Shown here in pieces: positions 13,871 through 49,269 of a stretch of 64,000 nt of DNA. Location: NCBI GenBank assembly GCA_000827325.1, contig KN832883.1:569552-633551 (forward strand), given 5' to 3'. Under the pieces are notes generated by a model. It was given only the letters and a program-made list of their open reading frames with translations. It was not told the DNA's origin and searched no databases. The DNA is from Oidiodendron maius Zn. Lineage: Eukaryota > Ascomycota > Leotiomycetes > Myxotrichaceae. A program made the position numbers and the translations under genes. Each line of letters begins with the position of its first letter. The first letter of the stretch is position 1.

Positions 13871-16800
13871 TTAGTAGTGCGCTAACAGGAATAGAGATGG
13901 GAAATTGTTCGAGCATACATTTGGCAAATTCAACACACTGAAGTGATGACCTGGAGTGAATTTGACATCAAAATCTCCGTCTGGAAGCAGCTTCTGCCAC
14001 CCGTCCGCATCGAGACACATAACGTTCGGACGCTGCAGAAGCCACTCTGTCAAGCCAGTCATCCGCACATTATCGGGCAGCTGCTGCCTGACTGTGTCGA
14101 GGCAGGGCGGTACATTGTATGATGCCCAAATAACAGTGACGCGAATTGGCGAAACAGTTGTCCTAACCGGCACCGGGCAATAGGCATTTATTGCCTTGAT
14201 TGTGGATACAAAATGCTGCTCTAAATTTTCATTTGTGCTGTCTTTTGAGCCTAGGATGCCCTGCTGCGATAGCCAGGCTGGCAGAGCTGCTGGCATTGCC
14301 TCGTACTCCAGTGGGCTGGGAGAGTCGATGAGTAGTAGATGCCCAATCTCGGCGCCTGCTGCCAGCAGTTGACGCGCGGCCTCGAGTGCATAATATCCCC
14401 CGCAAGAATATCCGACCAGAAAGTAAGGCCCTCTTTTGTGATACTTCTGGATTTCCTCGACCCAGAGGCCCGCCATGGCCTCGATACTGAGGTTGAAGGC
14501 GCGCGGATTGCGGATGAAGGGGCTTTGCAGGGCAACAATCAGTTGGCCAGGTGCGAAATCCAGCCTTGAATAGATGGCCGGCGAACCACTGCCATCGGGA
14601 AACAGAAATATGGTTCTCGTTGCCTGAGCAGAGCGGCCTTGGAGTACGATCGATCGCTGCTGTTGATGATGCTGGTAACCGGATCCGACCTTCGCCAACG
14701 TTTCGAATCTTGGGGCTGCTGGTGAAGATCCTGTGGCGCCTATTAATTCTTCTATCGATGTGAGAGTACCTGGCTTCACCTTAATGCCAAATCGCTGTTC
14801 GAGCATAGCAGTGATCTGGATATTCATTAAAGAATCTAAGCCCAACTCTGCGAGGTCTTGTACTTCGAAGAGCTCATGCACGTCGACACCGAGCTGCTCG
14901 GCAATTATGGACTGTAGTAATGGAAGCCCATCCTCTGCCGATGCGCAGAGAGAACTAATGTTTGAGTTCACGGACTCCTCAGTGTCCGAGTTCGTAAGCA
15001 CAGACTCAGAAGCGGGAGACGCCAAAGCTTGGAATTCAGTTGTTAAGTGCTTGTTCAGCCTCTGCGCTGTAGTGTGTGTCAAGAACATATGGCTGTCAAA
15101 TTCAAGACTTAGCTTCTCTTTCACAGCGGCTGCAATCTGCAATGAAAGAAGAGAGTCAATCCCTATCTCTACGAAATTATTAATCTCGTAGATCTCTTGC
15201 GTCGTGATCCCAACTTGCTCTGCAATTATCTCGAACACTTGGCCAGTAAGTCTGTCGAGTGGCGTCTGGATACACTTCCCGCCCTGAAGCATTTGTGCTA
15301 ACATAGCCTCGTGTGCAGCAGGGTGCTTCTTGAGCGCCACTTTTGGGTGAATGAGTACGTTCTCCTCACAAGAGATTGTGGGCGGTATGATGATATTTAG
15401 CAACGCAAGGGGAACTTTTTGAAATTTTAGATCGTTAATGAAAGCCACAATCCTATCCCCTTGCAATACTGATACATCACCAGCCACTGATTTTTCACCC
15501 GCCCAGTGCATCTTAACATGGACATGGTAGGGGACGCTGGGATCAATCGTGCGTGCGAGTCGCATTGACTTCCACCCTCCAGAGATGTAGATGGCGTCAC
15601 GTGTATCGACAGCATCATTCGCATTCATGACAAAGCCTGCAAGATGAACTAGGGCGTCAATCCAGAAAGGGCTGCAGAAGTAATTGCCTCCTTCTGTCCC
15701 ACGGTAGAGGTTCAACAAAGCTGTGGCTTCGAGATCCTCTCCACATATGAGAACCTCTTGCATTGCCTGGTATTTGGTGTTGTAATCGACGCAGGTAGAG
15801 AACAGCCGGTACACCATTCCACGAAGCAGCTTCGAAGTGTTTCCTGCTGAGACGCCCAGCACAAGTTCTTTAATTCGGTGTTCGATCAGATATGAGAGTT
15901 TCGACCACTTGTATTCCCAAACTTCCGCATCGCCGTAGAGAACAGTACACTTGGCGCTCCATTTTGTCTCGTCCCTTTCGGAGTCGTGGCGCCCGAAGCT
16001 TATTTCGATTTGGCACGTGTTGAGATTGGCTGAGACCAGCATACGCAGCAATCTCGACTCAGTAGGCCGAGCATGTGGCATTGTAATAGGATGCGTGATG
16101 GTCATGTCAGAGATCTCCATTCCGTTACCGCTACAGCGCAGATTATAATTGTCGCGAATATAGCGCGCAATGGTGAAGGCCATATCGCCGTATAATGAGG
16201 CTGGAACGAGCCCAGACCCGTTTACAGAATGACCTGCTATCGCAGCATGAAGGTCTGGGTCTGACATATTGCTCTCGAATAGCATGCTATGCTGGCTATC
16301 ACCGACAGAATTCTTCCAGACGAGCTTCTGCACTGTCGTGGTTCCTGGGCCGCTTTCTAGTGAATCGATTTCTCTGTTCTTTACCAATTGCCTTTTTATC
16401 CAGTAGTTCTTTTCTTCGAAACAGTAACTTGGAAGAACAAGTAATCTTTGGCACGACTCGTAGTCGCGATGATACCGTGACCAGTCACTGTCCACGCCGA
16501 GAGAAGACAGCGTTGATACGGCCTTTGCCATAGAGCGTAAACTTTCTTCTTGCCTCCGGAGAGTTGGTACTACCTTCACCTTAGGTCCCAGTATGGATTT
16601 AACCATATTTATGCACAGCGGATGGGGACCAATTTCTACCCAAACGGTGCTAGCATCAATGTGACCCCGAGCATTTGCTGTGTAGATTGAGCCGGCAAAG
16701 TCCACGGTTTCCCTGGTTTGCCTCCGGAGGTACCCTGGACTAATGACTCCGATATCATCGATTGTATCATTGAGAAGAGTTGATATCAATGGAATACGTG

Positions 16801-19800
16801 GCTTCTCAAAATTGACCCCGTTGGCAATTGTCTCGAATTCGTCTAGGATGGGATCAACTTGGGAAGAGTGGAATGCATATGGAATATCAAGGACAGTGCA
16901 CTTAAATCCACAAGACCTCAGTTTCTCTCTAGCTTTGGACATATCCGTGGCCGGTCCACTCAACACTGTATCGCTCGGGCCATTAATGCAAGCAATTTCG
17001 GCGGGGTAAAGAAGTGTGTCGAGTATAGTTTCTGCACTGGCCTTGATGGCCAGCATACTGTGGCTGCTAGCTTGGAGTTTCTTCTCCAGCAGCTCAGAAC
17101 GTTTCCCGACGAGGTAAATAGCATCTGACGGAGCTAAGATCCCACTAGCACACCTGTGTATAGTTAGCCAAATCAATACTGGAGCCCATTGCCCTATCCA
17201 TTATAGCCGGGGAAAGGAGTAACATGAACCTATGAGACTATCATAATGTGGAGTAGTGCCCGAAATGATACTTACAAAGCGCCGTATTCGCCAAGACTAT
17301 GACCAATAACCAGGTCAGCTCGTACTCCCAGCGAGGCCAGAAATTGGAACAAGCCGATTTGGACAGCCAAGATCGAGATGTGTAGTTGCACGAGCCGCAG
17401 AGGCGTGCCTTCATCTGCTGTTCCATCCACAATGGGTAAAAATGATGGAAATCCATGATCGAGTGCGACCTTGTTTAACCTCCGTATACTGGTTCTAAAT
17501 GAAGAATATGATCTGTACAACCCTTTACCAAGCGACGTATAAAATGTCCCTTGTCCAGTAAATGCAAAGATAACATTCGAAACTTTGTCTGGAGCCTTAA
17601 AATCCCCAAGCTGGATAGCAGTTTCCAGGCCGGCCTTTAACTCAGGAACAGTAGAACATACGAGCGAAATCCGGTGCCGATATTGGATACGTCGCGCGGT
17701 AGTTGTGTAGGATAGGTCGGATAGTGAGACATTTGGATTCGATTCCAGGTATTCAAGCATACTTTGCGAGTTTCCTCGCAAAGAACTAAATGTTTTCGCC
17801 GTGATATTAATGACATGATCCGACCGATCATCCTTTATGATCTGGTTTGCCTTGGGCCGCGCAGGGGGTTCTTCGACGATCACTGCAGTATTCCCTCCCG
17901 CTGCTCCGAAGTTGTTCACAAGAATTCGACGCTTGCTTCCGACAATCTCTTTTGTTGGTAAAGTCGTCTTTCTCATCGGTATGCGTACATTGCGCTCCGA
18001 AAGGTTTATGAAATTTCGATTAAGCCGACTTTTGACCCCAATATGCGGTGGTAAGGATCCTTCGCGGAGGACCAGTAAAGCCTTTATCAGCGAAGTAACT
18101 CCGGATGCAGCCTCTCCGTGGCCTATATTTGCCTTGACTGCATTTAGCCATAGCGGCGAATCTTCAGGGCGGCGTGGAGAAGCAGGAGCGAAGATGGAGG
18201 TAACAGACTCCATCTCGCAAGCGTCTCCTGCCTGCGTCCCAGTGCCGTGCATTTCCACATAATCGATATCAAAGGGTTGAATACCAGCAAGATCGAGAAC
18301 GTGTTTGTATAAACTCTTTTGGGTCAGGTCATGCGGCTGAGTAATTGATACTGCATCAGCTGAATAGTTAGTAGCTGCGGAGAGTATAACGCCCAAGACG
18401 TTATCATTATCAGCCTCTGCGGCATCGAGCCGCTTTATTACCACTGAAGCCACCGCATCTGCCCTGCAATAGCCATCCGCATTGTCATCAAAAGTTTTGC
18501 AGCCTCCAGTTGGTGAGAGAAAGTGGCCTGCGCTCAGGCCGACGTAATTATCGGGGCTAGCCAATATGTTTGCACCACCAGCAATTGCCATATCGCATTC
18601 GCCATTCCATATAGCACTGCACGCCGCATTCAAGGCAACAGAGCTTGATGAGCAAGCAGTGTCAATGCTGGTCGCTGGACCGCCGAACTTAAAGAAACGA
18701 TTGAGTCGACCCTATAGCACGATCAGTGTCTTGAGCCCAAATAAACGGAGTAATTTAACCTAGAACATACTGGACCAAATGCCCTCAAGCTTCCAGGGAT
18801 GAAATAAGAACCGATATCTGCTGGCATATTTTGTTCCTTGTATTCGTCCACTGTCTGACCGTAGAAAGTGCCAACCCTTCCCAGCTGCGTCGAAGCAGTG
18901 CGATTCGGCACAAATCCCGCCATCTCTAGAGCCTCATAGGCTGTGGTGAGTAGAATTCTTTGACCAGGCTCCGTTTGCAAGGCTTCTGTGGGGGACATAT
19001 TGAAAAATCTGGAGTCAAACATTCCCGGTGAGTCGATGAAACAGCCGTACGCGGGTTGAGATAGATCAGTCTCTGGATCAAAGCGATACTTGGGAATCTA
19101 TCCGCAGTTAGACAAATACAAGAGGTCATTTATCCACGGTGTAACATACCTTTTCATGACAGTCTCGGCCTTCCATAAGCAGTTGCCATAAATCATTGTG
19201 ATTGTTCGCACCCGGAAATCTACCAGCCATGCCAACAATTGCAAGCGGCGTTCTAGCTGGTTTGGTTTGCGTATAGATGCCTTTCCAAAAATTATTATCT
19301 ACCTTGACTTTACATGTGCTGTCCTTATTCAAATATAAGGCTAGGCTCTCCAAGGTTGACACGACCCCAAATGGTCGGAGGTTCCACAGGGGCCATTGAG
19401 AACCCGATAGCACTCTGTGACAGCCTTGACACATTAACTCCCAGTCGACAGGCTGAATTAGAATATGCTCTAGGACCTCTTTCAATAACGCCAACCTACT
19501 TGGTACTTTGCATAAAGACCCATTACTCCCGTTGATTAGTGTGCAGCATTCTGAGTCAAAGTCCGAATCGCCATAAATGCCACAAGTCTCGGGCACATCC
19601 AGAATCTCATCGATGGTCTCTGAAGAGAATAGATGCCCCGCATGAAATGGCACTTTTATCGGCAATTCGTAAAGCTTCACTTTAGGGCGTTTTGAGATCA
19701 GCTTCTGAGTCACCTGTTTAAGTGAAGCGGGTGGTCCACTCAAAGTCACCCTATGTGGACCGTACGCGCTTATGTATGTTTGACTGCGCCTAGGCAAGCC

Positions 19801-20491
19801 CTAAGATATATCAACTCTGTTACAAAACGAGGGTGGGAGCAACCCACGATCTCTTTATGGATATTGTCAAGAAAATCTTGTTCGGAGGCTTTATTGTCTC
19901 GCGATATGGTAATAGACCATTTCTGTCTTGGTGAAACTGGTCGTTCCAGCTCCCGAGAAACCCTGTCTGCCATGATACCTGTTCTGAAGGCGACACGAAC
20001 GGATTCCACCGCCAACGGAAGGAGTTGGGTAAGGCTGCTGGCAAGACTAACTGCTGCTGCAGATAGTTCCCCAAGACAAACACCAATAATGATGTTTTCT
20101 GACGCAGTGGGGTAAGGCTCAGAATGATCTTGCTCATATGCTCTGTATATGTAATTAGAATGTTTCAATGTCGCTCTCCACTTCATTCCAGAGAAACTTA
20201 CGCTATGAAAGATCCAAGCTGCAGTGTAACGATTTCGGCTGCTTGCAGCGCCGGATGGATGTCACCGTCATCTTGAGAGTGTCTGAAGAGCGAATAGATG
20301 TCATCTAATCCTGGGAACTCCGATCTCTCGAGCAGTGATAGTTTCAAACACTCGTCCCGGAGCGTCTTGTGTACGTTGTGGATGAATTTGGACTGTACAG
20401 AACCCTCATTGATGGTCAAAAGGAAAGCTTTTAATTCAATAGCGATATCCTTGGAAGCATCCCCAAAGAAGATTATCGATCTCGAACCCAT
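13871..20491 (-). CDS. Non-reducing polyketide synthase, SAT-KS-AT-PT-ACP-ACP-TE
   Basis: Iterative type I PKS that builds an aromatic polyketide from malonyl-CoA. Six minus-strand exons close in phase to 2093 aa: 20202..20491, 19848..20142, 19150..19800, 18771..19097, 17276..18711 and 13871..17153. The start is placed at [11 protein letters not shown], the usual SAT start. Domains: SAT (1-350; GVCLG with Cys119 and PFHAGHLF), KS (380-800; DTACSSS with Cys541, [16 protein letters not shown]), AT (910-1220; GHSLGEY with Ser993), PT (1280-1590; His1308, Asp1499), two ACPs (Ser1667, Ser1774) and TE (1845-2090; GYSCGG Ser1916, PGHH at about 2069). All catalytic residues I looked for are present. 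There is no methyltransferase or reductive domain. The last intron is long (122 bp). A thioesterase end points to release by hydrolysis, lactonisation or Claisen cyclisation. Product unknown. Confidence 0.96.
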
Positions 20492-26491: not shown

Positions 26492-27772
26492 TCACGATAT
26501 GTCGCCTCGGAGACGGTGATGCACATCCCATTTCGATGCATGGAATGACTTCTGAGCCATCCGCAGGTGTTCGTCTAGATCAATATTCCAAATCCAGTCA
26601 AAGCGATTTCGTAACTCCCTGGCAGGGTCTCTATCTCCTGTGCTGCGAAATTGATATATCGACGCTGCAGCCCTGGACTCGACAATTAATTTCTCTGTCC
26701 GGGGCCGCCGACACGAGTCAAATGCTTTAAACGCTGCTTCGATGTCCTGGCTATTGTTCACACCATTCATCAGCCTGGCCAGCACGAATGCATCCTCGAG
26801 ATCCATGCTGACTCCTGCTCCAATGTGGGGTGTCGTACAGTGTGCGGCATCTCCAGCGAGAGCAATTCTTCCTCGCCAAAAGGGAGGCAGAGGCGTTGGT
26901 AGATCGAAGCCAGCCCAGTGGTCATAGGTCTCAATGAGAGAGAGGACACGGCGCGCTGCTGCGCCAAAATGGTTGAAGTCTCCTTTCAGATTTTCTTGCG
27001 AAGATGGAATTTGCCACTTCTGATTAGGCCATTCGCCGCGAACATCATACTTGCAGCCAACAATATTGAGCACGGTACCCTGCTCAATGGGGTAAGTGAT
27101 AACGTGGGCACCATCACCCGCATAGATTTGGCCAGTCATGGCCAAAGTCTCACCAATGGTTTGGATTGCGCGGTCCATCTTAGCAAGACCGCGGTAGGAG
27201 TATATGCCGCTGTAATTTGGCTCCTGTGCATATACAAAGCGCCGAACACTGGATCGCACACCGTCACATCCAATTACTGCCGCCGCCGTGGACTTGGTGC
27301 CATCCGAAAATGAGAGTCTGACGGCACCATCAGTCTGGGTAATATTTTCGAGTCGTTTGTTAAACCGAATAGATTCCCTAGGAAGCATCTTAACAAGGAT
27401 GGAGAGGAAGGCGGCACGGCGGATACTTCGATACGCATTCCCTTCAATTGGCCAAAGCAGCTGAGCGTTGTCGGTTCTTCCATCGCGGCAATCAAGAAAC
27501 ACATCACGCTGGCTTCCGAGCCCGTTTCGTGTTGCCAGCCTGAGGAACTCTTGTTGGATGGCCGGATCTATTTTGTACATAGCCCTGACGCCATTTGGAG
27601 CGAAGGTAATACCGGCGCCAAGCTCGGAGAAGGTGTCACTGGCTTCGTATATCATGAATGGTACTCTGTATCGTTGGAGGCCGATGGCTAGGCTAAGACC
27701 CGTAAACCCCCCACCGATGATAGCGATGCAGAATTCAGCTGAGTGGCCATTGGCAGCACTTGTAGTCGCCAT
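26492..27772 (-). CDS. FAD-dependent monooxygenase, salicylate hydroxylase-like
   Basis: An intronless gene of 426 aa. I start it at MATTSAAN (27772) rather than the upstream in-frame ATG at 27877, because the FAD fold begins about 15 residues later. Group A flavoprotein hydroxylase motifs are all present: the dinucleotide-binding GGGFTGLSLAIGL near residue 20, the DG motif in GCDGVRSSVRRF, and the FAD-ribose GD motif in LAGDAAHCTTPHIGAG. Relatives hydroxylate phenolic rings, often with decarboxylation or dearomatisation of polyketides. The gene is divergent from an O-methyltransferase with 706 bp between the start codons and lies 7 kb from the aromatic PKS. I infer it could oxidise the PKS product. 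Substrate not provable from sequence. Confidence 0.9.
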   Translation of the reverse strand: MATTSAANGHSAEFCIAIIGGGFTGLSLAIGLQRYRVPFMIYEASDTFSELGAGITFAPNGVRAMYKIDPAIQQEFLRLATRNGLGSQRDVFLDCRDGRTDNAQLLWPIEGNAYRSIRRAAFLSILVKMLPRESIRFNKRLENITQTDGAVRLSFSDGTKSTAAAVIGCDGVRSSVRRFVYAQEPNYSGIYSYRGLAKMDRAIQTIGETLAMTGQIYAGDGAHVITYPIEQGTVLNIVGCKYDVRGEWPNQKWQIPSSQENLKGDFNHFGAAARRVLSLIETYDHWAGFDLPTPLPPFWRGRIALAGDAAHCTTPHIGAGVSMDLEDAFVLARLMNGVNNSQDIEAAFKAFDSCRRPRTEKLIVESRAAASIYQFRSTGDRDPARELRNRFDWIWNIDLDEHLRMAQKSFHASKWDVHHRLRGDIS

Positions 27773-28478
27773 AATGCAGTAAATAAGCTCTATCTGGAAG
27801 TATCTTTGAAAGGTTGGCTGCTCTAGGGAGGGTAATAACTGGCATTTCACCTTATACAAGGTAAAGGATTCGGACACTATATATCTAATTGGATCATAGC
27901 GTCTCTACCTTGTGATAGAAAAGGATTATTGTCCGCTTATCAGCTCATCAAGTAATAATAGCTATAAAAGAATCCCCTTCGGGTTTAAGGAAGAAAACAG
28001 AAACCCTATATTTCAGTACATATACTAATCGTACATATGTTTGATTTCAAGATATTTATAAGTGTGGGCTAGAGGGGCGTAAACAATGTGCTACAATCTG
28101 AATAATGCCAATTGCCTAATCTGTAAGGATTGTTATATCTGCTAGTATTAACTATGTGGCAAAGGGGCCCCTGATTAAGATCTTCAGGGGCTACGTCTGC
28201 TACCCCTCCTGGTCAACCAGTCGCTTCCGAATACAGGCGTCAATCCGATGGCGTAAGTAATGTAACGCAGCCACACGGACCTGGGGCGGGGCAGCTCAGG
28301 ACGGCTGTACTACCCCTAATCGACTAGATACGTCAACGGTCAAACGGGCCACATGTTAGAGCTTTATCATTGTACAGTACTTCCAAGCTTTTATGCCACT
28401 AACTCAGAGAATCAAATTTCCCTCTTTATTTTCTTGGTCAATAGTAAATCTTTGCTGATTTCGTTACCTACTCTCGTC
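27773..28478. promoter_or_regulatory. Shared divergent promoter of monooxygenase and O-methyltransferase
   Basis: 706 bp separate two divergent start codons, so both promoters lie here. It contains GC-rich stretches near 28200..28300 and a short inverted repeat around GGGGCCCCTGA and TCAGGGGC at about 28166. A common regulator for both genes is plausible but I cannot name a site. Confidence 0.5.
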
Positions 28479-31755: not shown

Positions 31756-34080
31756 TCAAGCCTTCGAACCCTTCACCTCAGTGGCGTCCTTCTCTGGATC
31801 ATCTACGTCAAGTTTGCCCTTAGTTTCCACCGTGACGTCCGCAGGTTTGGTCCGCACAACGTTAATGGAGGCCGAAGTCTTGTGGCAAAAAACCCTCAAA
31901 CTCACCACCAACGGCGCATTCCAAGGATCCTCTGGCTTATCGCTATTAGCGGCCTGGTCAGTGGCAGCAGAGTCACCACTGTCAGCCTGAGGGGCATCAT
32001 CGGCGCCAAATGACCCGCCCATTGGGGCTACACCAGGCGCAGCGTCAGAAGTAGACGTTTGTGCCGCGGCAGGAGTGGTGTCTACAGCTGCAACCTGCAC
32101 AAAATCCCCTGTACTCTTTTCGGCCCTTTGGTCCACCGGATCGGTCTGTCCTTTGGCGTGGGCGAGGTCGTACGAGAGCCCAATGCGAATTAGTTTATCA
32201 CGCCGGGACAGCCAGTTCTGCTTCACGACGTCTTCGACCTTCGGAAGACTAGAATCCCGAGAAGCCATAACCTGCATTTTGACCTCATACTTTCCGGGCT
32301 CGAGAGATACCTCCGCAGTTGCTGAACGATCTCCGCTGGAGTAGCCCCGTACAATATATTCACTGTCGCCAGCACTGTGGAGTCTGAAGGCGAGTTGGAA
32401 GCTGTATTGTCCTGTCAAACCTCCAAAGTAGCGAGAATCGAGCTGGGAAAGTACGATGACTGTCTGACTAGGTTCTGTAATTTCGACCTCAAAGCTGGTG
32501 TCGTTGTAGTCGCCGGACCATGGTACTTGGACAGTCGTCCAATGCTGCGAGACATTCCAGTCGGGTGTAAACAATCTTGTACGCCAAAATTGGACGTATC
32601 TCTCGAGGAAGTCGTCATACGGCATCCAGAATATTCCATCATTGCCAAATTTATAGTCGAGTTCTTTGATTGCCTCTGCTGTCCACTCCTTGGATCCATC
32701 ACTCCAGGGGCCATTCCACTCCGTCTCGCCCCAGGGGTTCTTCACCATGAGAAGGCGGTTGTTTTGGTATTCAGCAGCTCTCAAGACGGAGTAAGCATGG
32801 CCGTCCTCAATGCCTTGTCTACCCTTCTCCTCGGGATCTGGATGGCCATATTCTCTAGTGCCTGCTCCAAAGAGGAACTTTTTATTCACTTGGAGAAGAC
32901 CCTCCTTCCAGAGCAGGTCCTTATCAAGAATATCGTCAGAAACGATCTCAGTGGTAATACCACCCGTGAGATCTTCGACGCCCTCACTATATTCATAGTC
33001 AGCAGCGATAAACATAAGAGGCATACAAAACTCACCCAGGCCAACCTCCATCAATGGCATTGAAATCACCATGTGCCTTCGCGAATGCTTTCTCAATCAA
33101 AGGAACCCACGTCTCCGAAGGGTGGGCGCAGCTAGCGTAGTAGAGCGCATCCGAGTTCGACTGGAAAGTCTTGCGCCAGAGTTTTCGGGATACCTCTGGC
33201 TCTAGTCGAGAATGAGAAGAATCCCACACAGCCCGTCTCTCATCATTGCAATCATCGTAGTCTGGGGCTTTGAGATAAAGCTTGTCATCGATGACTTCAG
33301 ATACCCACTCCCCGTCACGGTGGAAAACAAAGCCGTAGACCCCGACCTTCTCGTCCCGGCATGTGTCTGGACACAATCTCTGGATCAACCGCGGGATCTC
33401 CTCATCGACGCACAGAGACCCCAGAGACGAGATGAACCAACAGTCTCCCTCCGCGCCCTGACGCATGTCTCTAACATGTGCCCCCTTGCCAACAAAAAAG
33501 TGCGGATCCTCAAAGATCCATCCCACACGTCGTGCGCAAGCGGGAATAGAAGAACCCCCAGCAGCCTCCTCAGACTGGGCCGGCTGCACATTGCCCCAGA
33601 AAATCGGTCCACCAGTCGATGTCGCCTTCTGTGTCACATCAAAAGTGATTTGGTTGCCGCCATCGTCATCAGCAGTGGCGGGGGAGTCGGACGTAGCAGT
33701 CAATGCATTCAAGCAGTAATCCATATCATCGAGATCGAAATGTGGATCGGTGTATTTCGTATTTGTCCGTCTGCATTCTGCGACGATTTGCTTGACCTTG
33801 GACTCGCATTCTCGGACCGCAGCATCATATGATTCCGTGACAGGTGTTCCCTTGATGATGCCCTGGGGCATGCGATCCGCAACTTGCTTCGTGTATAGGT
33901 CGGTAGGAAGGACGGAGGGTGCTGTGCGCAGTGTTAGTGACCACCATTCTTCCGGTTGGACTGGAGCTTACGTTTGGCGGCGCTGACGCCGGATTCACCC
34001 AGCGTGGCCTTCCAGAAGTTGTCGATAATCTCCTGGGAGGACAAGGCTGTGGTGGCTGGTGTAGCTGATGCAGCAGCCAT
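31756..34080 (-). CDS. Calpain-family cysteine protease
   Basis: Three minus-strand exons, 33972..34080, 33036..33921 and 31756..32986, join to 741 aa. The start MAAASATPATTALSS lies in exon one, and splicing restores SAAKPPSVLPTDLYTKQVAD and DGGWPGEGVEDLTGG. The C2 peptidase triad is complete: Cys197 in GAEGDCWFISSLGSL, His395 in DGHAYSVLRA and Asn415 in VKNPWGETEWNGPW. Calpains are intracellular proteases that cut a limited set of targets. After the protease core come beta-rich C2-like domains (DYNDTSFEVEITEP...) and then an acidic Ala/Asp/Ser-rich tail of low complexity. No EF hands are seen. It lies between the methyltransferase and the RiPP-like locus but is most likely a cellular protease rather than a cluster enzyme. 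Confidence 0.92.
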
Positions 34081-34805: not shown

Positions 34806-35537
34806 ATGGATTACAATATGAACTCGCAGCCAAATGTAACGGAAACTGAGAGCGCACATCTGATGCTCGACTGTAATGACGAAGAAAAAGACCAAAACTC
34901 ATCGGTCTTAGTATATACTGGTCGCCGTCAATGCTTTCCACTATCAAGGGCTACTTTAGCCATCCTCCTTACATGCACTTCCCTCGCCAGCATCCTTCTA
35001 TTCGGATTCATGCTACATACTCTCCGTTTTCGCAGTCACCAGCAACCCTCTGAAAACACGCTACCATTGCCTGGAACAGAGTTTGGTTCCTGTGGCGACA
35101 CCCCATCCTCAGCACGTCAATCAAACTGCACATTCGATATCATGTCTTTCTCATGGCTTCCCTCACCATGCGCGGATCCCGAGCTCACGGCAGAATTTGC
35201 AGGTGTACGAAATTGGACGTGGTGGTTAGACACAGATAAGGCGACTGCCGTGTCGCCTGAAGAAGTTTCTCGGGGAGACCATGCGGAACTCTTCGTCACA
35301 AGGGAATACCACATGTATCATTGCACGTACATGTGGAGAAAATTGCATAAAGGATTGCTGAAGAGTCTTGAAACTCCAGAAAAAAGAGGGATCATAGACA
35401 CTTATATCGGGAAATATGGTCATACCTCACATTGCGAGATGATGCTGCTGGGTATGGAAGAAGACCACGGTACAGTGCAGAGAAACGTTACCGATACAGC
35501 AATAGTGATGAAATTCCCTCGGTGCATGTGGACATGA
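34806..35537 (+). CDS. Membrane-anchored UstYa-like protein with two HxxHC motifs
   Basis: An intronless gene of 243 aa. The reading frame is open from a TTG at 34791, but the first ATG is at 34806. One membrane helix (about residues 48-73) is followed by a lumenal/extracellular domain with many cysteines: EFGSCGDTPSSARQSNC, then SFSWLPSPCADPELT. HxxHC appears twice, as HMYHC (169-173) and HTSHC (206-210), the same signature that defines the UstYa (DUF3328) oxidases of ustiloxin-type pathways. The overall sequence is divergent from the classic UstYa next door, and the segment between the motifs is different. I infer a copper/oxidase-like or related role in peptide modification. The 78-bp gap to the UstYa gene and its tail-to-tail orientation support joint function. 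Confidence 0.75.
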   Translation: MDYNMNSQPNVTETESAHLMLDCNDEEKDQNSSVLVYTGRRQCFPLSRATLAILLTCTSLASILLFGFMLHTLRFRSHQQPSENTLPLPGTEFGSCGDTPSSARQSNCTFDIMSFSWLPSPCADPELTAEFAGVRNWTWWLDTDKATAVSPEEVSRGDHAELFVTREYHMYHCTYMWRKLHKGLLKSLETPEKRGIIDTYIGKYGHTSHCEMMLLGMEEDHGTVQRNVTDTAIVMKFPRCMWT

Positions 35538-35614
35538 GACGGGGCATGAGAATAAGCATGGCGGAATGAACCGTACAAATAGACGCAATTAATACGCCTT
35601 CAGTCCATTACTGC

Positions 35615-36612
35615 CTATCTACTAGGATTATGTGAGTGGCCATGTCCTGCTTCTGCACCCTGTCCTTTGGCAGCTCTCGCATGGTTATTTCGCTGCCACT
35701 CTTGAATCTTGTCATACTTTTTACATTTATGTTGTGTATCGAAATCTGGCGTTGCTCCCAATTCTGCCCCTGGCTCTATTCGATGCAGGAATGGAGTTAT
35801 ATCTGAGTAGCACATGAGCCGTATACGAAGCGCCTCAATACAGTGATCGACATGCTGCGAAATTCATTAGTGAATGGCCTTGTAAGGTTTATTTGCGGCT
35901 TACAGAACGTAAGAAGTCGGCATCATCTTGGAACGTCGGATTATCGCTGTAATCGTACTCATCCTTGTATGTATACTGCCTGACCATATCCAAACAATGC
36001 ATACTGTGAAAAACTTCAAGTCCAGCCAATATACCACCTTTGTCAGAGCGGAGCCAATTGCCATCGTCAGACTTATTCAGAGCTGGAAGAAGTTCGTAGG
36101 GCACATCAATGGTTCCGACTATTTCTAGTATCAACAAATGATAAAGGCAAAGAGATATGGGGATATACTCTTCCACAAATCGCTCCATGCTTTCTCTAAC
36201 TCTGGCGTTGGTGGCCCTTTATATGGGCTTGGTTGAAAGAATGCATTGGAGAATTGAACGTCTTCATATTCAACAACGTCAAATACCGGAGCTTGATAAA
36301 CAGGTCAGTAATACAGGTTTTTATCCGAATCAAGCGTTATATAATTAAATGGTAGCGCAACTTACACCATGCATTAAGTTGGCGAGTGCACTCTAGGTCC
36401 GTGGGTTTTCTTGGATATATCCAGCCGTAGCAAATTATTGCAAATTGTATGATGTTCAATATCCAACCCAGCAATGCGAATTTATGCAATATTCTTTTTC
36501 GACGGCTGACTGGCGACGATATTTGGCTCGGCAGAAAACTCTCTAATTCTGAATCCTTAACAGCCATTTGTGAATAAGAATTCTGTTGTGTTTCCATGGT
36601 GCTCTTGAGCAT
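35615..36612 (-). CDS. UstYa-family (DUF3328) protein, RiPP-type oxidative cyclase candidate
   Basis: Four minus-strand exons, 36366..36612, 36169..36291, 35904..36124 and 35615..35854, join to 276 aa (271 if translation starts at the ATG at 36597). There is one membrane anchor (FALLGWILNIIQFAIICYGW), then the classic family blocks: VFDVVEYEDVQFSNAF, PSPYKGPPTPELEKAWSDLW, and both catalytic-type motifs HSMHC (163-167) and HVDHC (198-202), the latter beginning exactly at an exon start. Family members in ustiloxin, asperipin and phomopsin pathways form oxidative macrocycles on ribosomal peptide cores. A Gly/His-rich tail follows. The gene is divergent from the repeat-bearing precursor 911 bp away, the layout expected for a RiPP cluster. 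Confidence 0.92.
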
Positions 36613-37523
36613 GTTTATTCCACTTTCGGCGAATGTAAAGGAGCAGAATTTCGTCAGACAACATACGACTCAATGGGCTATCACTAGATCATGCGTTTTC
36701 AAGTTCCGGCGATAAGGGATTCTCTTCGATGCTATGTTCTTAGCATGCGGCACTAGCACTGTGGCACAGTTATGGCGCCGTGCGCCTAACTTATACAGGA
36801 AGCTGCCTTATTAACAAGAATGGAGTGGGTGACTAGTACGTCAAATTCCTTTGTGTGCCAATCTTTGACGTGATTTGGTTGCATACGAGGAAAAAGGTTA
36901 GAAAAGCGGTGGATAAGTTTACGTCTGCGTGTTTTCTTTGTATGCCAAAGCTGAAGAATTTCATCGCAAATTAAGAGCTGTAGTCAATTAAAGTTGCATG
37001 CTAATTAACAGCGAAAATTGGAATTCAGATGCGAATCCTTTGGAAGGCATATGCGATAAAGTATATCTAAAACGACGTCAGCCCCGCACGCCACAGCTGA
37101 GACCCCGCACTTCCACAAAGACTGTCAGCTCTAGATCATCTTTTACAGTAAGTAGTCACGTAAAATTGCTGACGGACGTGCGTCACCTTCCTAAGTTGCC
37201 TAAGAGCAATATCTAACTGGCTCGTTCGGTGTAGAAGTGTTGATCGCCGTAATACAAAACTGGCTTCCGTCTGACGACTTGGATTCTATGGCCAGATAAC
37301 CATTTTCTCTCACCATACTTTTTGAGGCAGGTATAACAGACTTTCTGATAGCTATTTATCCGGTCTCATATTCCAGGTAAATGTTCAAAAGAGTCTATAG
37401 CTTGGCCCCGCCCTGTCCTCTAATGATTCGTATATAACCCCTCTCCAAACACTCAATATCCCTTCCTCCATCTAACCATAACTTATTTCTCTTTTCATAT
37501 ATTTTGCATCCGCAGCATAAAAC
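36613..37523. promoter_or_regulatory. Divergent promoter between UstYa gene and precursor gene
   Basis: 911 bp between two divergent starts. A TATA-like TATATAACCC lies at 37431, 93 bp before the precursor ATG, followed by a CT-rich leader typical of strongly expressed fungal genes. The 72-codon frame at 36998..37216 is not recognised and I do not call it a gene. Confidence 0.55.
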
Positions 37524-37820
37524 ATGAAGCTCTCTCTCTTCGTCCTCGCTCAGGCCCTCCTGGCTGTAGCTCTCCCAACACCTGCCAATGACGTTCTCGC
37601 CGAAATCGACGCTCGGGAAGCCAGCCCCATTGCAGAGGCCGATCCAATCTACTACATCAAGCGCATTGGTTATACCGATACACTTGAGAGCCGCGAAGCT
37701 GAGGCCGAAGCCGATCCGATCTTCTATATTAAGCGTGTCGGTTACTCGCCCGAGAAACGCGAAGCGGAAGCTGAGGCTGATCCAATCTTCTATATTAAAC
37801 GCACCGGGTATTCACCATAA
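37524..37820 (+). CDS. Secreted repeat precursor peptide, putative dikaritin-type RiPP precursor
   Basis: An intronless 98-aa protein. Residues 1-17 form a signal peptide (MKLSLFVLAQALLAVAL). The rest is three repeats of the pattern DPI(Y/F)YIKRxGY(S/T), at residues 40-51, 64-75 and 86-97. Kex2 dibasic sites KR occur at 46-47, 70-71, 78-79 and 92-93. Each repeat is preceded by an acidic leader: REAEAEA twice and REASPIAEA once, like the Ste13-trimmed spacer of yeast alpha-factor. Kex2 plus dipeptidase trimming could release DPIYYI/DPIFYI hexapeptides and GY-containing peptides such as VGYSPE. Tyrosines are conserved in both parts, as needed for UstYa-type crosslinking. It is not an alpha-pheromone of the usual filamentous type (no WCxxxGQxC). 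The nearby UstYa gene makes a RiPP precursor the best reading. Confidence 0.88.
   Translation: MKLSLFVLAQALLAVALPTPANDVLAEIDAREASPIAEADPIYYIKRIGYTDTLESREAEAEADPIFYIKRVGYSPEKREAEAEADPIFYIKRTGYSP
37641..37814 (+). repeat. Three in-gene core repeats of the precursor peptide
   Basis: Copies at 37641..37676, 37713..37748 and 37779..37814, spaced 72 and 66 bp apart. The protein motif is almost constant: copies two and three differ in one residue, copy one also has Tyr for Phe, and only the residue after KR (Ile, Val, Thr) changes in all three. The nucleotide sequences of copies two and three are also close, which suggests recent duplication. Confidence 0.85.
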
Positions 37821-38559
37821 AGCTTCAGGCAGCGGCTTAGACGGGCATTAACTTTTGTATCGAACACGGGCGAGATTCGTATTTCCGATCATACGCCCAT
37901 TATACGTACACGTTACAGGACTTTAGTGCCCGAGACGTCTTGAGAGTAGTAGCATGGCGCTCCCTGCTTCATAGTTCCCTTACTATATAAACCATCAAAC
38001 TACTGCGCCACTCTGCCTCTTATCGCCTTGTGCTATGTCTCACTAGACTACGTATATCCTGTTCTACGTGTCTACTTGTCGAAGCGCTTCCTCGTCTTAT
38101 AATCCTGCTGTAGTTTACTAATGAAGCTAGATACAAGTACGCAAAGCCTCAAGCTCAATAATTTACCTTGATATATATGTGATATGGCTATTTTACAAGT
38201 TCAATGAGGTTATCAGGCCGATATTTCGGGCTGAAGTGTCTGTTTTCGAAGACCTCTTATACAGTCACGAATGATTTTGATAGGTTGCACAATGCTGTCA
38301 TGCTTATTCGCTAGTCCGTGAGAGTCCCCGCAGACGTCCGCGATGCCAAGTTGTCCATCCGATACACACGTAATACAGTCTGCCTTGCTACTATCAGTCC
38401 CAGCTGAAGTTAAGCTACCTTTAATTTACCGCCGCTAGCAGTAACAGGAGAATTTCGAGGGTGACACTGGTCAGAGACTTGATTATTTGGACCTGGGAAG
38501 GTGGTAGGACAATTAAATAACCTCAGGCTTACTAGCATCTGTCAAGTATTATTCTGAAA
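37821..38559. other. Intergenic region between precursor and regulator
   Basis: Precursor 3' end and promoter of the Zn2Cys6 gene. No other feature supported. Confidence 0.45.
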
Positions 38560-40450
38560 ATGTCCGACCCGGTTGATGAACTGGCACCCCAAGCTTGCGT
38601 TTCATGCCGCGAAAAGAAGCGGAAATGCTCCAGAGAAGTGCCCGTATGCTCGCTTTGCCGCAGGAATAGAAGACCATGCCACTACCCTCCGAAAACTGCT
38701 AGTCCTTTCGCCGAGAGCAGTGAAAGTTACATTCGACAAGTATGTTTGAGTAATTTATTTCCCAATTATTGATACAATAATGGATAACATTCCCTATTAC
38801 TTGGAAATAAGATTGACAGTGTATTAGAATACCTTCCCTGCCATATTCTTTCTAGACCTCTACACTTTCAACAAACGACGAAGTGTGATTCCGGCGCCAA
38901 CTATTACCCTTCCAGACAAGTATTACAAAGCACTCGGAAGCAGAGAACAATTGCATTATCACGTGGATAACTACTTCTCTATGATTCATCCTATCCTTCC
39001 GATAGGTTCGAATAATTCTCTTTATTTCTGCCACATCAAAATTCTCCTTACATGTAGCTAATATAACTTCTTAGTATCTAAACTTCGGATCTATCATCAG
39101 CTGTCAAAATCACTTGACGCTCTCGATGCGGATCTCGTCCTTCTATTTCTAGCAATGCAAATGCATTGTGAAAGAGACGGCCATAACCCCCCTCGGACAG
39201 AAATTTATGACCTTGCAAAGCAATGCTGCTTGCATGCCGAACAGAGCAATATGTTTTCTCCGAGGTTGCTTCAAGCGTCTCTGTTAATTGCTATGTACGA
39301 GGTTGGGAATGCCATATATCCAGCTGCTTACCTCACAGTTGGTCATTGTGCCCGGCTGGGACATGTCATGGGGATAAATAACACCAAGGATGGACCTCAA
39401 ATGTTTTCGAAGCCAGGTAATGTCAGTCAAATACTGCTTATCACAGGTCCTTACGATAGCTGCAGAATCATGGGCGGAGGCAGAGGAGAGGCGTCGAGCC
39501 TGGTGGGCTGTTATCATGCTAGACAGGTGAGGCTATTAAAAACCTTCATGTAATGCAAAAGACGCCTAACTTGTAAGGTATGTTACACTTGGTGGTGGCA
39601 ACCGCCCATTTGCATGCAGCGATGCGAATCCAGGTGATCTTCTTCCCATGGATGAAGAGAGTTGGGAAAAAGGAGTAAGTATAGTAATCGTGATAAGGCG
39701 GAACCCTATAGCTAATGAAGCCAGGAACCTACACTTATCCAGCCTCTGGTGGTGTCAGAATATACTGCAGTTCGGGCATCGCCTTTTGCTCGCACAAGCC
39801 AGGCGTCTCATCTTCTCTCACATGTTCTTCGTCATGTGAATGACGGTTACGAGGATGTGAAGTTCCACTATGAAGAAGCCATACAGCTTCATCGCACGAT
39901 AGATACTTTTAGCCTTGCAATTTCCCACGAACTCAACGATATCAAGGGTGCAGTGCGTGACTGGACACATACTTGTTCGCACTTCACAGCAATGGCCATC
40001 TGTTACAGCGCCCAAATAACACTTTACGATACCTATTGGTGTGCAGATGCTGATGCTATCAGAGGAGTTGGAATTCCCGAGCAGCTTGAAATGCAGCAGA
40101 TTTCTATCAATGGCATTAAAAGCGCTTGTTTCGCCGTCCATCAACTTGCCAAGATGATATCTGAAGCCGCTCAAATTGGAGACATGTGCAGAGTGAACCC
40201 ACTAACTACTGATTGTCTATACCAAGCCTCTATGCTCCTTCATTCTTATATCCGTGAAACAGGCAATAATGAATACGCGCAGGCAGTTATAGATATTGTA
40301 CAGGCCCTAAAAGTCCTGGCTGGAATCTGGGATGTGGCAAGTATGGCCTTCACCTCCTGTGCGGCAGTTCGGACAACATTTGCTAAGTATTGCGCAGAGG
40401 AGTATCTTGGTATGCTTGATATTGAGAGCCTTGGTTTGGATGAGCAATAG
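38560..40450 (+). CDS. Zn2Cys6 transcription factor with fungal-specific TF domain
   Basis: Six exons close in phase: 38560..38739, 38828..39005, 39075..39416, 39460..39526, 39578..39674 and 39743..40450, giving 523 aa. The N-terminus carries a binuclear zinc cluster of the form CX2CX6CX6CX2CX6C (ACVSCREKKRKC ... CSLCRRNRRPC). Splicing then restores the fungal-specific regulatory domain: FPAIFFLDLYTFNKRRSVIP, DNYFSMIHPILPIVSKLR, ARLGHVMGINN and AEERRRAWWAVIMLDR. There is no long coiled coil after the zinc cluster, so dimerisation mode is unclear. It follows the RiPP-like precursor on the same strand, 740 bp away, and precedes an SDR, so it is the natural candidate for the pathway-specific activator. 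Binding sites (CGG-type) were not identified with confidence. Confidence 0.9.
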
Positions 40451-40584
40451 ATCGGATCTTTGTTATTCTGGTAACAGTAGGATGTCTTTTCGGGATTGTT
40501 ATTTACGGCCGAAGAGCAGCATAAAAAGGCTAGCATTGTCTAGGTCAGCTATTCTTTGCCAAAAAGAGTATGTGAAATTAACAT

Positions 40585-41645
40585 TCAATCGTCAAAGAAC
40601 AAAAGCTCTTTTGTCTCCTCTTCCATCATATCCCACAACTTCTTTCCTGTGCCTCGATCACGGAAACCCGCTTCAATATCTGACCTAGTTCTCCCCAGCC
40701 TGCCCCATGGGATGATATAAGCCCCATTATTATGAAGTCCGATTGACTCTGAAAATCCAGCATAGAGTTCCGTCAAGGCACCTAGATGGGGATCGTGCAA
40801 CATTAGCCAGCTGACGACTGTGGATCCAATCGGATTCGAATGTCGTTGAAGGTTTGTTTTTAAGTGGCCTGGATTCAGAGACTAAGGATTCATTCGGTCA
40901 GCAATAGTTGGCGAAATAAAAGCGGGAGGATATATTGACTGACGACCCCTACGATATTGTGGTTGCCATATCTCTGGGCCAGTTCCATTGCGAGGAGCAC
41001 GTTGCCAACTTTACTTTGGCCATAGTACGTCATAGAACCTTTCTCTCCTTTCCACCCGATCGGCTTTTTGGTGCCGATATCCTGCCAGTCTATTCCATCC
41101 CCTCTCGGAGAGAGCATGATATGACCATCACTGCTGACCCATACGACTCTTACGGAGCCCTTTGGAGCCGTTTGGGCTGTTGAGAGTAGTATAGGCATGA
41201 GTAATTTGTTCATGATGAAGTGGGCCACCACGTTTGTTCCCCATTGGAGCTCGTATCCTTGTTGGGTCACACTCCCTTTAGACACATTCATAACCCCGGC
41301 ATTAAACCAAACTGTATGTAGGACTTCTTCTTGCGCTAAGAAGCTTTTTACTCCAGGAGCAATGGTTGACAGGTCACTGAGGTCGATCACTAAATACCTT
41401 ATTTCGCCTTTGCCTGATGTTACAGAAGCTTTGATTTCTGCAGCAGCCTTCTCTGCGGACGCATCAGTTCGCGAAGTGATATATACCTTGGCATTTTTTG
41501 AGTAGAGGATTTTGGCGAGAGCAAGTCCAATACCTGACGTTCCTCCAGTAATAAGATAAACCTTGCTCGAGAGATCTGGAAGATCATTTTCTGTAAATGA
41601 AGGCTTGGGTGGGTATAGTTCGCTCAGAGCCTGACGGAGAGGCAT
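40585..41645 (-). CDS. Short-chain dehydrogenase/reductase
   Basis: Two minus-strand exons, 40944..41645 and 40585..40881, give 332 aa. Splicing restores VGVSLNPGHLKTNLQRH, the PG motif after the active site. Rossmann-fold landmarks are TGGTSGIG at 33-40 for NADP(H)/NAD(H) binding, WFNAGVM, a serine in VVWVSSDGH, and the catalytic YxxxK in TYYGQSKVGN. The size and the LSSKVYLITGG start match the retinol-dehydrogenase-like SDRs that are common in fungal metabolite clusters. It converges on the Zn2Cys6 gene with a 134-bp gap. It may oxidise or reduce a cluster product; substrate cannot be told. Confidence 0.92.
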
Positions 41646-46612: not shown

Positions 46613-49269
46613 TCAATGAATCATAAAAATCTTGCTATCCTTCATAATCTCGTCCTCCGACTTTCTCCAGAACGCCTGACCATCCATCATTTCATGTAGG
46701 TACGCTTCTCCAATTAATTGGTAGTAAGGTCCCTCCTCCACTTCGTGTCTTCGAAGCAGGACAGGCACGCTACAGCCGAATAAGATACAGATCGAGTCGC
46801 CTTCTTTCGCCTGTCTTGGCGCAAGTCCCACACCTCCTCGATCAGTGGTAAAAAATCTTCGGTTCCAGATTACACTCTGAACGCGTCTGAGAAAATCTTT
46901 GAGTAAGGTTGGCGTGCGGCTACTATTGATCCATTTCTGAGTGTCAATGTCCATGTCTTGGCTTGGAGTTTGAATGCATTCCAGGAATGCTCGCCCGTAC
47001 CACCGAGGGGCCTTATTTCCTTCTTCATCTCTATCAGCAACGAGCGTTCGCCATAACTGTTCAAACGACACGGATGCCTCAAGTCCTATACTTTGCGACG
47101 GAAGTCCCGCCATATCCAGCCACTCACTCTGAACTATTCCCTTAGTAGCATGACCTCCTATCGCAGATATTTTTGCGATCTCAATGCCTACCACTTGCAA
47201 GATTCTAATAGTATCACTCCTGTGCTCCACCTTACTGAATTGTGCCTCGGCCGGTCTTCCCAACGCGGCATTGTAGCAATTTCTGTCAGGAAGTCCGACA
47301 AGACTATCGCCATAGAGACGGTTATTATTATTAGGGTCATCGTAGGTTGCAAAAGGAGAGCCCAAGCTAGTTAAGACCCATGATGGCAAATTATCACTTG
47401 GTCGTTCCAGACGATTCGCCTTCTTCTGATTCCTGATCGGTGCCCAATGTCTGCAAATGATATCCAATGATCCAGACTGTTTCACGCAAAGCGCCACAAA
47501 GTCAAAGTAGACATCCTGAAATTTTTTCCCATAATCGAGGTCAAAATCTTTCGTCGACTGATCCAACTTGGCAAGCGCCAGTAGTCCATAGATGCTGTCC
47601 CGTGGATCATTCGATTCAAACGGAACAAGGGTTGATACAAGAGTTTCTAAAGAATACCTTCTAGATATAATGTCACCTTTTCCCGACTTCCAGAAAAGAG
47701 AGTTGCAGATATTAACCAAAGTAGGCGCCGGCAGTCTACGATATGCGTAGCTCGGATTTAGGAAAGCCGCATTTGCCTGCAGGTTTGAAAAGCGATCAAC
47801 CCGAGAGGCAAGAGCTGCGATTATGTCGGCAAAGTCTTCCCAAGATATGGAACTTTTCCCCCAGTATAAGTCTACTCTTTTGGCGCATGCCACCTCCTGG
47901 AACACCCATAGCCTGGTGAACCACTTATTGCGCAAAAGATCCTCCAGAGCTTGCCATCTCTTCTTGCTTGATTCTTCCTGCACGACTCTATCGAAGTTGC
48001 TGATGTCGAGTAACTCCGTAATAAGGGCGATCGGATTGTCATTATCCGAAGTATCCGAAGTCCCTGGGTCAAGCCAAACAATGACAGAAGATGCTTCAGC
48101 ATATGTCTGACCCATTCTGGAGACCTGGGCACTTCTTTCGTAATTGTCTTGCTGGTTGATACAAATAGAATCGACCCAGATATAGACTGGTGCGTTTACC
48201 TTTCGCAGATGCCTTAGAGCATTATGAGCAGTTGGGTGGATGTTTAACATCCAGAAGTTGGACCTTTCGTAGATTTTCAATGTCTCGCGTGGGGGTTCGT
48301 TCCCCCAAACGTATGACAGAGCACAATAATCTGGAAAATCATGTTTCACTCGGATCATTGAGGCGAAAATCTCACTGTCTGGAACTCCGGGAAGCAGCTT
48401 AATTAGCCTGATGGAATTGGCATCTTCGAGTCGTTGATATTGATACCTAACAATACGACCTTCAACACCGGGGTCAATATATGCTGAGTAGGTATAATCT
48501 CCATTCCGGTGGCCTTGCTGATTCTGCTCGACCCGACGTATAGGCATATCTAGTCCACTCTGGGGTAAAGGCCATGTTGGATCGACAGGCAAACTTTGGG
48601 TATTATTTACACCGGTGGCGAGTACATGTTGTTGTCGAGCACTTGGAGAGTTCATGAGGATCTCTCCCTCCGTTGAAGACCTCGATTGCCCATAAGAATT
48701 CATCCTGCTACTTGCACCTGAAGCTATCTGTTCGAAATCTGTAAGAGCCTCAGCTTGTTGCCATAGATGGGCAGAGGATTCTCGGTTTTGATTTGCGCTC
48801 TGAGGTTCTGAGCAAGGTCGATTTGCTTTCTTGCAGGCGTCACATCGAGACCCAAGGGTTCCGTCCCAAATACGATTCTCGGGTAGACACTGTAGTGAAT
48901 TATGATGATTAAATATTGATGACATATTTAGACGGCTGCAGTCCGGCTTACCTTTATCTTACTCTGGCGGCAAGGCGCACATTTCATCCTGCTCAGTTTC
49001 CGGCGCTTGCTGTCCGTGATGTCCTCTTCAACATTCAGCGAGCATGGGTAATTATTTTCATCGCACCGGTCGCAGCGCGCCTTATTCTTGAGACGGGTAC
49101 ACTATTCGATGGATGTCAGCAATTAAACGGATGTGGTACATGGCTCAGGGCTAACGCGTACCCCAGCATGGTCTTTCTTGCATGTGTCGCAACGTTGAGG
49201 CTCAGGAGATACCTCTATTGGCCTGCCTGTTAGGACATGCTCTCCAGTTTCTAGTGCGAACGACTCCAT
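46613..49269 (-). CDS. HET-domain protein with two N-terminal Zn2Cys6-like clusters
   Basis: Three minus-strand exons, 49162..49269, 48952..49101 and 46613..48889, join in phase to 844 aa. Residues about 255-430 are a heterokaryon-incompatibility (HET) domain: YCALSYVWGNEPPRET, IWVDSICINQQDNYERSAQV and a KWFTRLWVFQEVA block. HET proteins trigger cell death when genetically different hyphae fuse. The unusual part is the N-terminus: four CX2CX6C units at 27-37, 46-56, 77-87 and 102-112, spaced like two binuclear zinc clusters. Both introns fall immediately before a cysteine of these units. The C-terminus has the conserved GDSICILFGCSVPVLLRR block. Whether the zinc clusters bind DNA is unknown. 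Confidence 0.88.

Follow-up and report, generated by a model that had tools for sequence, protein, structure and literature searches.

A probable small dikaritin-like gene cluster with two likely oxidases in Oidiodendron maius, one of them outside Pfam's UstYa model

A locus of Oidiodendron maius Zn, a leotiomycete and root-associated fungus, is read here, with a probability of about 0.7, as a small dikaritin-like (ust-RiPS) gene cluster with an unrecognised core and two likely oxidases. To judge from the sequence, its product is probably an oxidised, ribosomally made short peptide. The locus lies in a stretch of 64,000 nucleotides (the window) on contig C14 of the genome that was searched (45.9 Mb, 58 contigs). 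A precursor, an UstYa oxidase, a second HxxHC protein, a Zn2Cys6 regulator and a short-chain dehydrogenase (SDR) had been placed between positions 34806 and 41645 by the first-pass annotation, and the open frames and Pfam matches recover all of these parts almost to the base. In window coordinates, the features are the following:

34806..35537, + strand: second double-HxxHC protein, of 243 aa, with a membrane anchor and without a Pfam match, motifs HMYHC and HTSHC
35615..36597, - strand: UstYa (DUF3328) oxidase gene in four exons (36366-36597, 36169-36291, 35904-36118 and 35615-35854)
37524..37820, + strand: precursor, a Kex2-repeat protein of 98 aa in a single open frame, with a signal-like hydrophobic start
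37635..37673, + strand: unit 1 of the precursor, EADPIYYIKRIGY
37707..37745, + strand: unit 2 of the precursor, EADPIFYIKRVGY
37773..37811, + strand: unit 3 of the precursor, EADPIFYIKRTGY
38560..40450, + strand: Zn2Cys6 regulator, several exons, ends approximate, PF00172 in the first exon (36.4 bits)
40585..41645, - strand: SDR, PF00106 (67.3 bits), probably split into two exons, 40893-41645 and another frame at 40585-40881

The Zn2Cys6 and short-chain dehydrogenase assignments are borne out by these Pfam scores, and we infer from position alone that both genes are members of the cluster; the SDR has 20 further matches in the genome at E<=1e-20. The features of a dikaritin locus are found, namely a signal-like precursor repeated at Kex2 sites, a nearby PF11807 gene with two HxxHC motifs, and tyrosine in the core. 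The tyrosinase of ustiloxin- or phomopsin-type clusters is missing, as had already been remarked: PF00264 has no match on contig C14 and its nine matches genome-wide all lie elsewhere. No S41 peptidase match was obtained on this contig. The earlier proposal of a dikaritin-type RiPP is thus upheld by the secreted Kex2-repeat precursor, the intact UstYa neighbour, the second double-HxxHC protein and the precursor relatives described below, while the crosslinked product stays a presumption.

The precursor consists of three units of the form EADPI(Y/F)YIKRxGY. Pairwise comparison of the units shows synonymous differences at 5-7 of 13 codons and non-synonymous ones at 1-2 of 13, and no DNA repeat was reported there by TRF at score 40. 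The repetition is therefore maintained at the protein level, and the units seem ancient and conserved as protein. The description of a secreted precursor with three repeats and Kex2 sites is confirmed for the signal-like start, the three units and the KR pairs, but the first spacer carries SR instead of KR, so that not all units are flanked by two dibasic sites. The gene is single-copy, its only match in a search of its own genome being itself. A resemblance to apidaecin was dismissed as a chance match (14.8 bits for a cut-off of 23.1).

The same layout could be that of a linear signal, in other words of an unmodified secreted peptide, pheromone-like or other, processed by Kex2 and Ste13 while the neighbouring oxidases act elsewhere, and this explanation is considered improbable. 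In its favour, KR followed by EAEAEA is the arrangement of alpha-pheromone precursors, and layouts of this type occur in other Kex2-repeat proteins too (PMC6339444). Against it, the 98-aa precursor is devoid of Cys, GQ or PG. According to PMC10569646, GQ or PG is found in the vast majority of Leotiomycete alpha-factor repeats, and an alpha-pheromone identity was rejected on this mature-repeat feature; the same paper reports another O. maius alpha-factor, of 89 aa with 2 repeats. In PMC7329392, DUF3328 genes are near none of the yeast alpha-mating factors and near just 3 putative fungal pheromones. A strict pheromone pattern gave zero matches genome-wide, and the pheromone search thus provides no positive control.

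Under the preferred reading of an oxidised peptide, the first candidate enzyme is UstYa. An intact four-exon gene model encodes 269 aa with the motifs HSMHC and HVDHC, and two exons score above the PF11807 threshold, with 43.9 and 58.7 bits, in agreement with the classic UstYa annotated at first as divergent from the precursor. The protein corresponds to OIDMADRAFT_169633 (a 259-aa record), with 100% identity over 96%. The two divergent genes are separated by 926 bp from start codon to start codon, and no paired CGG site is present in the stretch between them; a scan for bacterial-type promoters, not applicable to a fungus, returned zero sites. Comparison of UstYa with solved structures yielded only chance-level hemagglutinin rows (E 0.18 or worse), and its model had no Foldseek match in a viral library at E<=0.001.

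The second candidate enzyme is encoded by a gene convergent to UstYa, with 77 bp between the two stop codons. Its annotation as a second anchored HxxHC protein just past UstYa holds for the position, the motifs and the anchor (one predicted helix in the AlphaFold model), but PF11807 does not match it. Among ten paralogues in the genome, three reach PF11807 weakly (11.2-13 bits for a cut-off of 25, E 0.094-0.34), and NCBIfam gave only unrelated weak rows for 35 members of the family. When 23 diverse sequences are aligned, including 12 encoded at other O. maius loci, the invariant positions comprise all six residues that define the two HxxHC motifs, together with C96, G97, A103, C108 and C122. 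This signature, CG..A..C..C, is distinctive, since UstYa alignments have other invariant columns outside HxxHC. The monomeric AlphaFold models of this protein and of UstYa (mean pLDDT 81.9 and 74.0, respectively) share the same order of elements, an anchor helix, a strand, and two successive helices each bearing one HxxHC motif. An hhalign comparison of the two families gave a probability of 3.7, then 13.8 with a broader HxxHC alignment, and finally 77.9 (E 1.8e-5, motif on motif) when both alignments were broadened, this stepwise broadening being carried out without an unrelated control alignment. The family retrieved no rows among solved structures, and the model had no Foldseek match in the PDB at E<=0.001. 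On the basis of these alignments and models, we read the second HxxHC protein as a probable remote branch of the UstYa superfamily with an UstYa-like working, outside PF11807. Among the open-access papers retrieved on HxxHC, DUF3328, RiPPs and Kex2-repeat proteins (KEPs), none names the family in its title or abstract opening.

A biochemical reference is provided by CctR, a dimeric DUF3328 copper enzyme with two HxxHC motifs and two coppers per monomer, which needs dioxygen and electrons and for which an accessory protein delivering electrons or Cu(I) is suspected by its authors (PMC12435403). As modelled, both oxidases of the locus resemble CctR in their N-terminal anchor helix and in the two HxxHC motifs carried by two helices. 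Unlike CctR and the DUF3328 enzymes, the second oxidase does not reach the threshold of Pfam's model and shows a Cys signature of its own.

A protein search detected 19 relatives of the precursor at E<=0.01, including sequences from Hyaloscypha bicolor and Hyphodiscus hymeniophilus. Together with the window precursor, they provided 44 units from 17 of 20 sequences, P0016, P0018 and P0019 being left out as they end inside a unit; these units are not independent, since relative P0001 shares 94% identity with the window precursor. GY and the first basic residue are imposed by the anchor of the count, and their constancy is therefore built in. At the free positions, Pro is kept in 41/44 units, Tyr, two positions before KR, in 42/44, and Ile in 41/44 (Val in 2, Phe in 1). 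The internal basic pair is KR in 42/44 units, RR in one and KC in one, so that Arg follows the first basic residue in 43/44. A dibasic pair in the spacer is found within the next 14 residues for 34/44 units; of the ten spacers that lack one, several are mere C-terminal ends. Two of the exceptions (P0013 and P0017) look like reading across an intron. Several sequences among P0013 and P0015-P0019 also end or shift frame just after DPI(Y/F)Y, which would fit an intron placed within the unit Ile codon in those species.

On these grounds, the following pathway can be proposed. The precursor would enter the ER and Golgi, and its units would be oxidised by the two HxxHC proteins of the locus, UstYa and its neighbour, both of which have four His and two Cys in a site like the copper-binding one of CctR. 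The most likely oxidation would be an ether link between the conserved Tyr and an adjacent residue, even if the kind of oxidation is a guess. Kex2 would cut after KR, Kex1 would take off KR, and a Ste13-type dipeptidase would trim EA-EA-EA and the conserved (D/E)P. The latter would suit a dipeptidase accepting XP, as XA and XP are named as STE13 sites in PMC10569646. Cleavage at both basic pairs would yield (I/V/L)(Y/F/L)YI plus xGY-tail fragments, these core boundaries being a guess too. The cores proposed at first, DPI(F/Y)YI or (I/V/T)GY(S/T), equal the fragments released by a Kex2 cut at the internal KR, but the conserved stretch spans this pair. Oxidation across the internal KR before cleavage would give a longer two-Tyr core instead, for example (DP)IFYIKRTGY with an uncut KR inside a ring or bridge. 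The [M+H]+ values calculated for candidate peptides, unmodified and with loss of 2H, are 555.318 and 553.302 for IFYI, 571.313 and 569.297 for IYYI, 767.397 and 765.382 for DPIFYI, and 1344.731 and 1342.715 for IFYIKRTGYSP (1340.700 with loss of 4H). This variant, rated as rather unlikely, would account for the stronger conservation of the internal pair (42 KR and one RR of 44) relative to the spacer pair (34 of 44), for a conserved Tyr on either side of it and for the presence of two different oxidases. It is opposed by the fact that YIKR could plausibly be a Kex2 site in its own right, with RR in place of KR in one unit, and its conservation argument is reduced by the built-in anchor residues and by the C-terminal ends among the pairless spacers.

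The association of precursor and oxidases could also be fortuitous, both enzymes serving another pathway that the precursor merely adjoins; the window does contain an NR-PKS region, together with further oxidative genes. Such a coincidence is nevertheless judged very improbable, given the situation in Hyphodiscus hymeniophilus and the recurrence of the association in the O. maius genome. In Hyphodiscus, the locus tag of the precursor (D0Z07_6266) is only three away from that of the second HxxHC protein (D0Z07_6263), both being reported on a contig of 1,626,522. Two pairs of UstYa and HxxHC homologues have equal longest contigs (2093 and 23,466) and presumably share them. No Hyphodiscus UstYa was found among the named entries of 48 UstYa matches, many entries carrying no name. 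The search of the repeat in fungal proteins suggested by the first-pass annotation has been rewarded by the 19 relatives and by the HxxHC neighbour in Hyphodiscus, but not by an UstYa named for that fungus.

In O. maius itself, the HxxHC family comprises 15 genes grouped into 12 loci, and PF11807 is found within 4 kb of 9/15 genes and 8/12 loci. By chance, 0.09 of 12 loci would be expected (binomial P 5e-15), a figure derived from 36 merged PF11807 loci under the assumption of independent, randomly placed loci, which fails for paralogous clusters such as C17:37-46k and C1:6.50M. Kex2-repeat precursors are present at six of the 12 loci (the window, C13:25.7k, C11:635k, C14:734k, C14:350k and C11:189k), versus none in controls. 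No such precursor was detected at the other six, within 6 or 7 kb for five and about 9.6 kb for C17:37-46.6k, by a detector that reads single open frames and can miss intron-split precursors. A stricter version of this detector found zero in four arbitrary 7-kb stretches and in the rest of the window, and zero at eight PF11807 loci of 3.4-3.7 kb, which are shorter than most test stretches. Looser settings also reported an ankyrin-repeat frame of the window, its antisense and off-frame readings of true KEPs, all discarded by eye; the ankyrin frames are not reported by the stricter version. The precursors outside the window are:

L033:3177-3497: Kex2-repeat precursor, unit NVATYGI-KR, beside HxxHC and UstYa genes
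L037:3340-3762: Kex2-repeat precursor, unit SYVVGPE-KR, beside HxxHC and UstYa genes
L038:2836-3213: Kex2-repeat precursor, unit TNDYPKYGSVGDFEAVNKE-KR, beside HxxHC and UstYa genes
L024/L045, C14:350179-350538, + strand: Kex2-repeat precursor, Tyr-free repeat ALNAVIVDE, between two Pfam-negative HxxHC genes
L025/L046, C11:189067-189609, + strand: Kex2-repeat precursor, Tyr-free repeat ALNAVKPDSE, between two Pfam-negative HxxHC genes

The two loci with Tyr-free repeats (C14:348.7-353.4k and C11:187.6-192.2k) have the same order, HxxHC (-), precursor (+), HxxHC (+), and neither has a PF11807 match within 250 kb. Being closely alike, they may trace to one event. The mycorrhiza-specific O. maius proteins OmSSP4 and OmSSP5, described in PMC5938622 as having no Cys, two internal repeats and 102 and 108 aa, were considered as candidates and set aside, as their length and GRAVY match none of the four single-frame KEPs computed; two other KEPs lie on split frames.

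These arrangements, observed in one genome, suggest that the HxxHC family may be a branch of copper peptide oxidases invisible to DUF3328-based mining. A more specific proposal, which we advance tentatively and somewhat short of even odds, is that the Pfam-negative family constitutes another branch of dimeric copper peptide oxidases, dedicated to Kex2-repeat precursors, that would act in pairs, either with UstYa on Tyr cores or as two different members of its own on Tyr-free repeats without UstYa. According to PMC7329392, DUF3328 genes are enriched beside Kex2-repeat genes, Tyr is commoner in the repeats concerned (65.6% vs 38.2%), and a DUF3328 gene is among the 15 nearest genes in 1758/7878 KEPs. 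If the proposal is true, it would explain the modification of part of the 78% of fungal KEPs that have no nearby DUF3328. Since fungal RiPP mining relies on the DUF3328/UstYa model, a sister family under its detection limit would widen the range of searchable clusters, and its occurrence beside repeat precursors with and without UstYa would make the processing of DUF3328-less KEPs testable. With its three closely spaced genes, the window offers a convenient test case, and deletion mutants of O. maius are already published (PMC5938622).

By its layout, the locus precursor is a KEP. The locus resembles those of ustiloxin and phomopsin in its signal peptide, its repeated Tyr-containing units ending in KR and its adjoining DUF3328 oxidase. 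It differs from them by a contig without tyrosinase or S41 peptidase match, by a second oxidase outside PF11807 and by its core. The ustiloxin core is YAIG, and that of asperipin-2a is FYYTGY. The latter resembles, by eye, the F-Y-I-[KR]-T-G-Y of the locus, and asperipin-2a likewise involves one PF11807 gene and no need for a tyrosinase; unlike it, the locus has a motif split by a dibasic pair and an extra HxxHC protein. Asperipin-type clusters lack tyrosinase as well (PMC12048977). The phomopsin core is YVIP (PMC7329392) and also differs from that of the locus. YIKR, FYI and YYI are absent from the main text of PMC7329392, as are YIKR and FYI from that of PMC6339444.

Other genes of the window can be noted. 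The cluster is adjoined by a calpain-family cysteine protease (31759-33967, - strand) in two overlapping frames, probably a spliced gene. The NR-PKS region (13874-20000, - strand), with SAT, KS, AT, PT-like, ACP and thioesterase domains, is grouped with a FAD monooxygenase (26495-27904) as a separate biosynthetic locus. Further on, a HET-domain protein (46616-48958, - strand) and a NACHT/ankyrin-repeat protein (61581-63998, + strand) are of kinds known from heterokaryon incompatibility.
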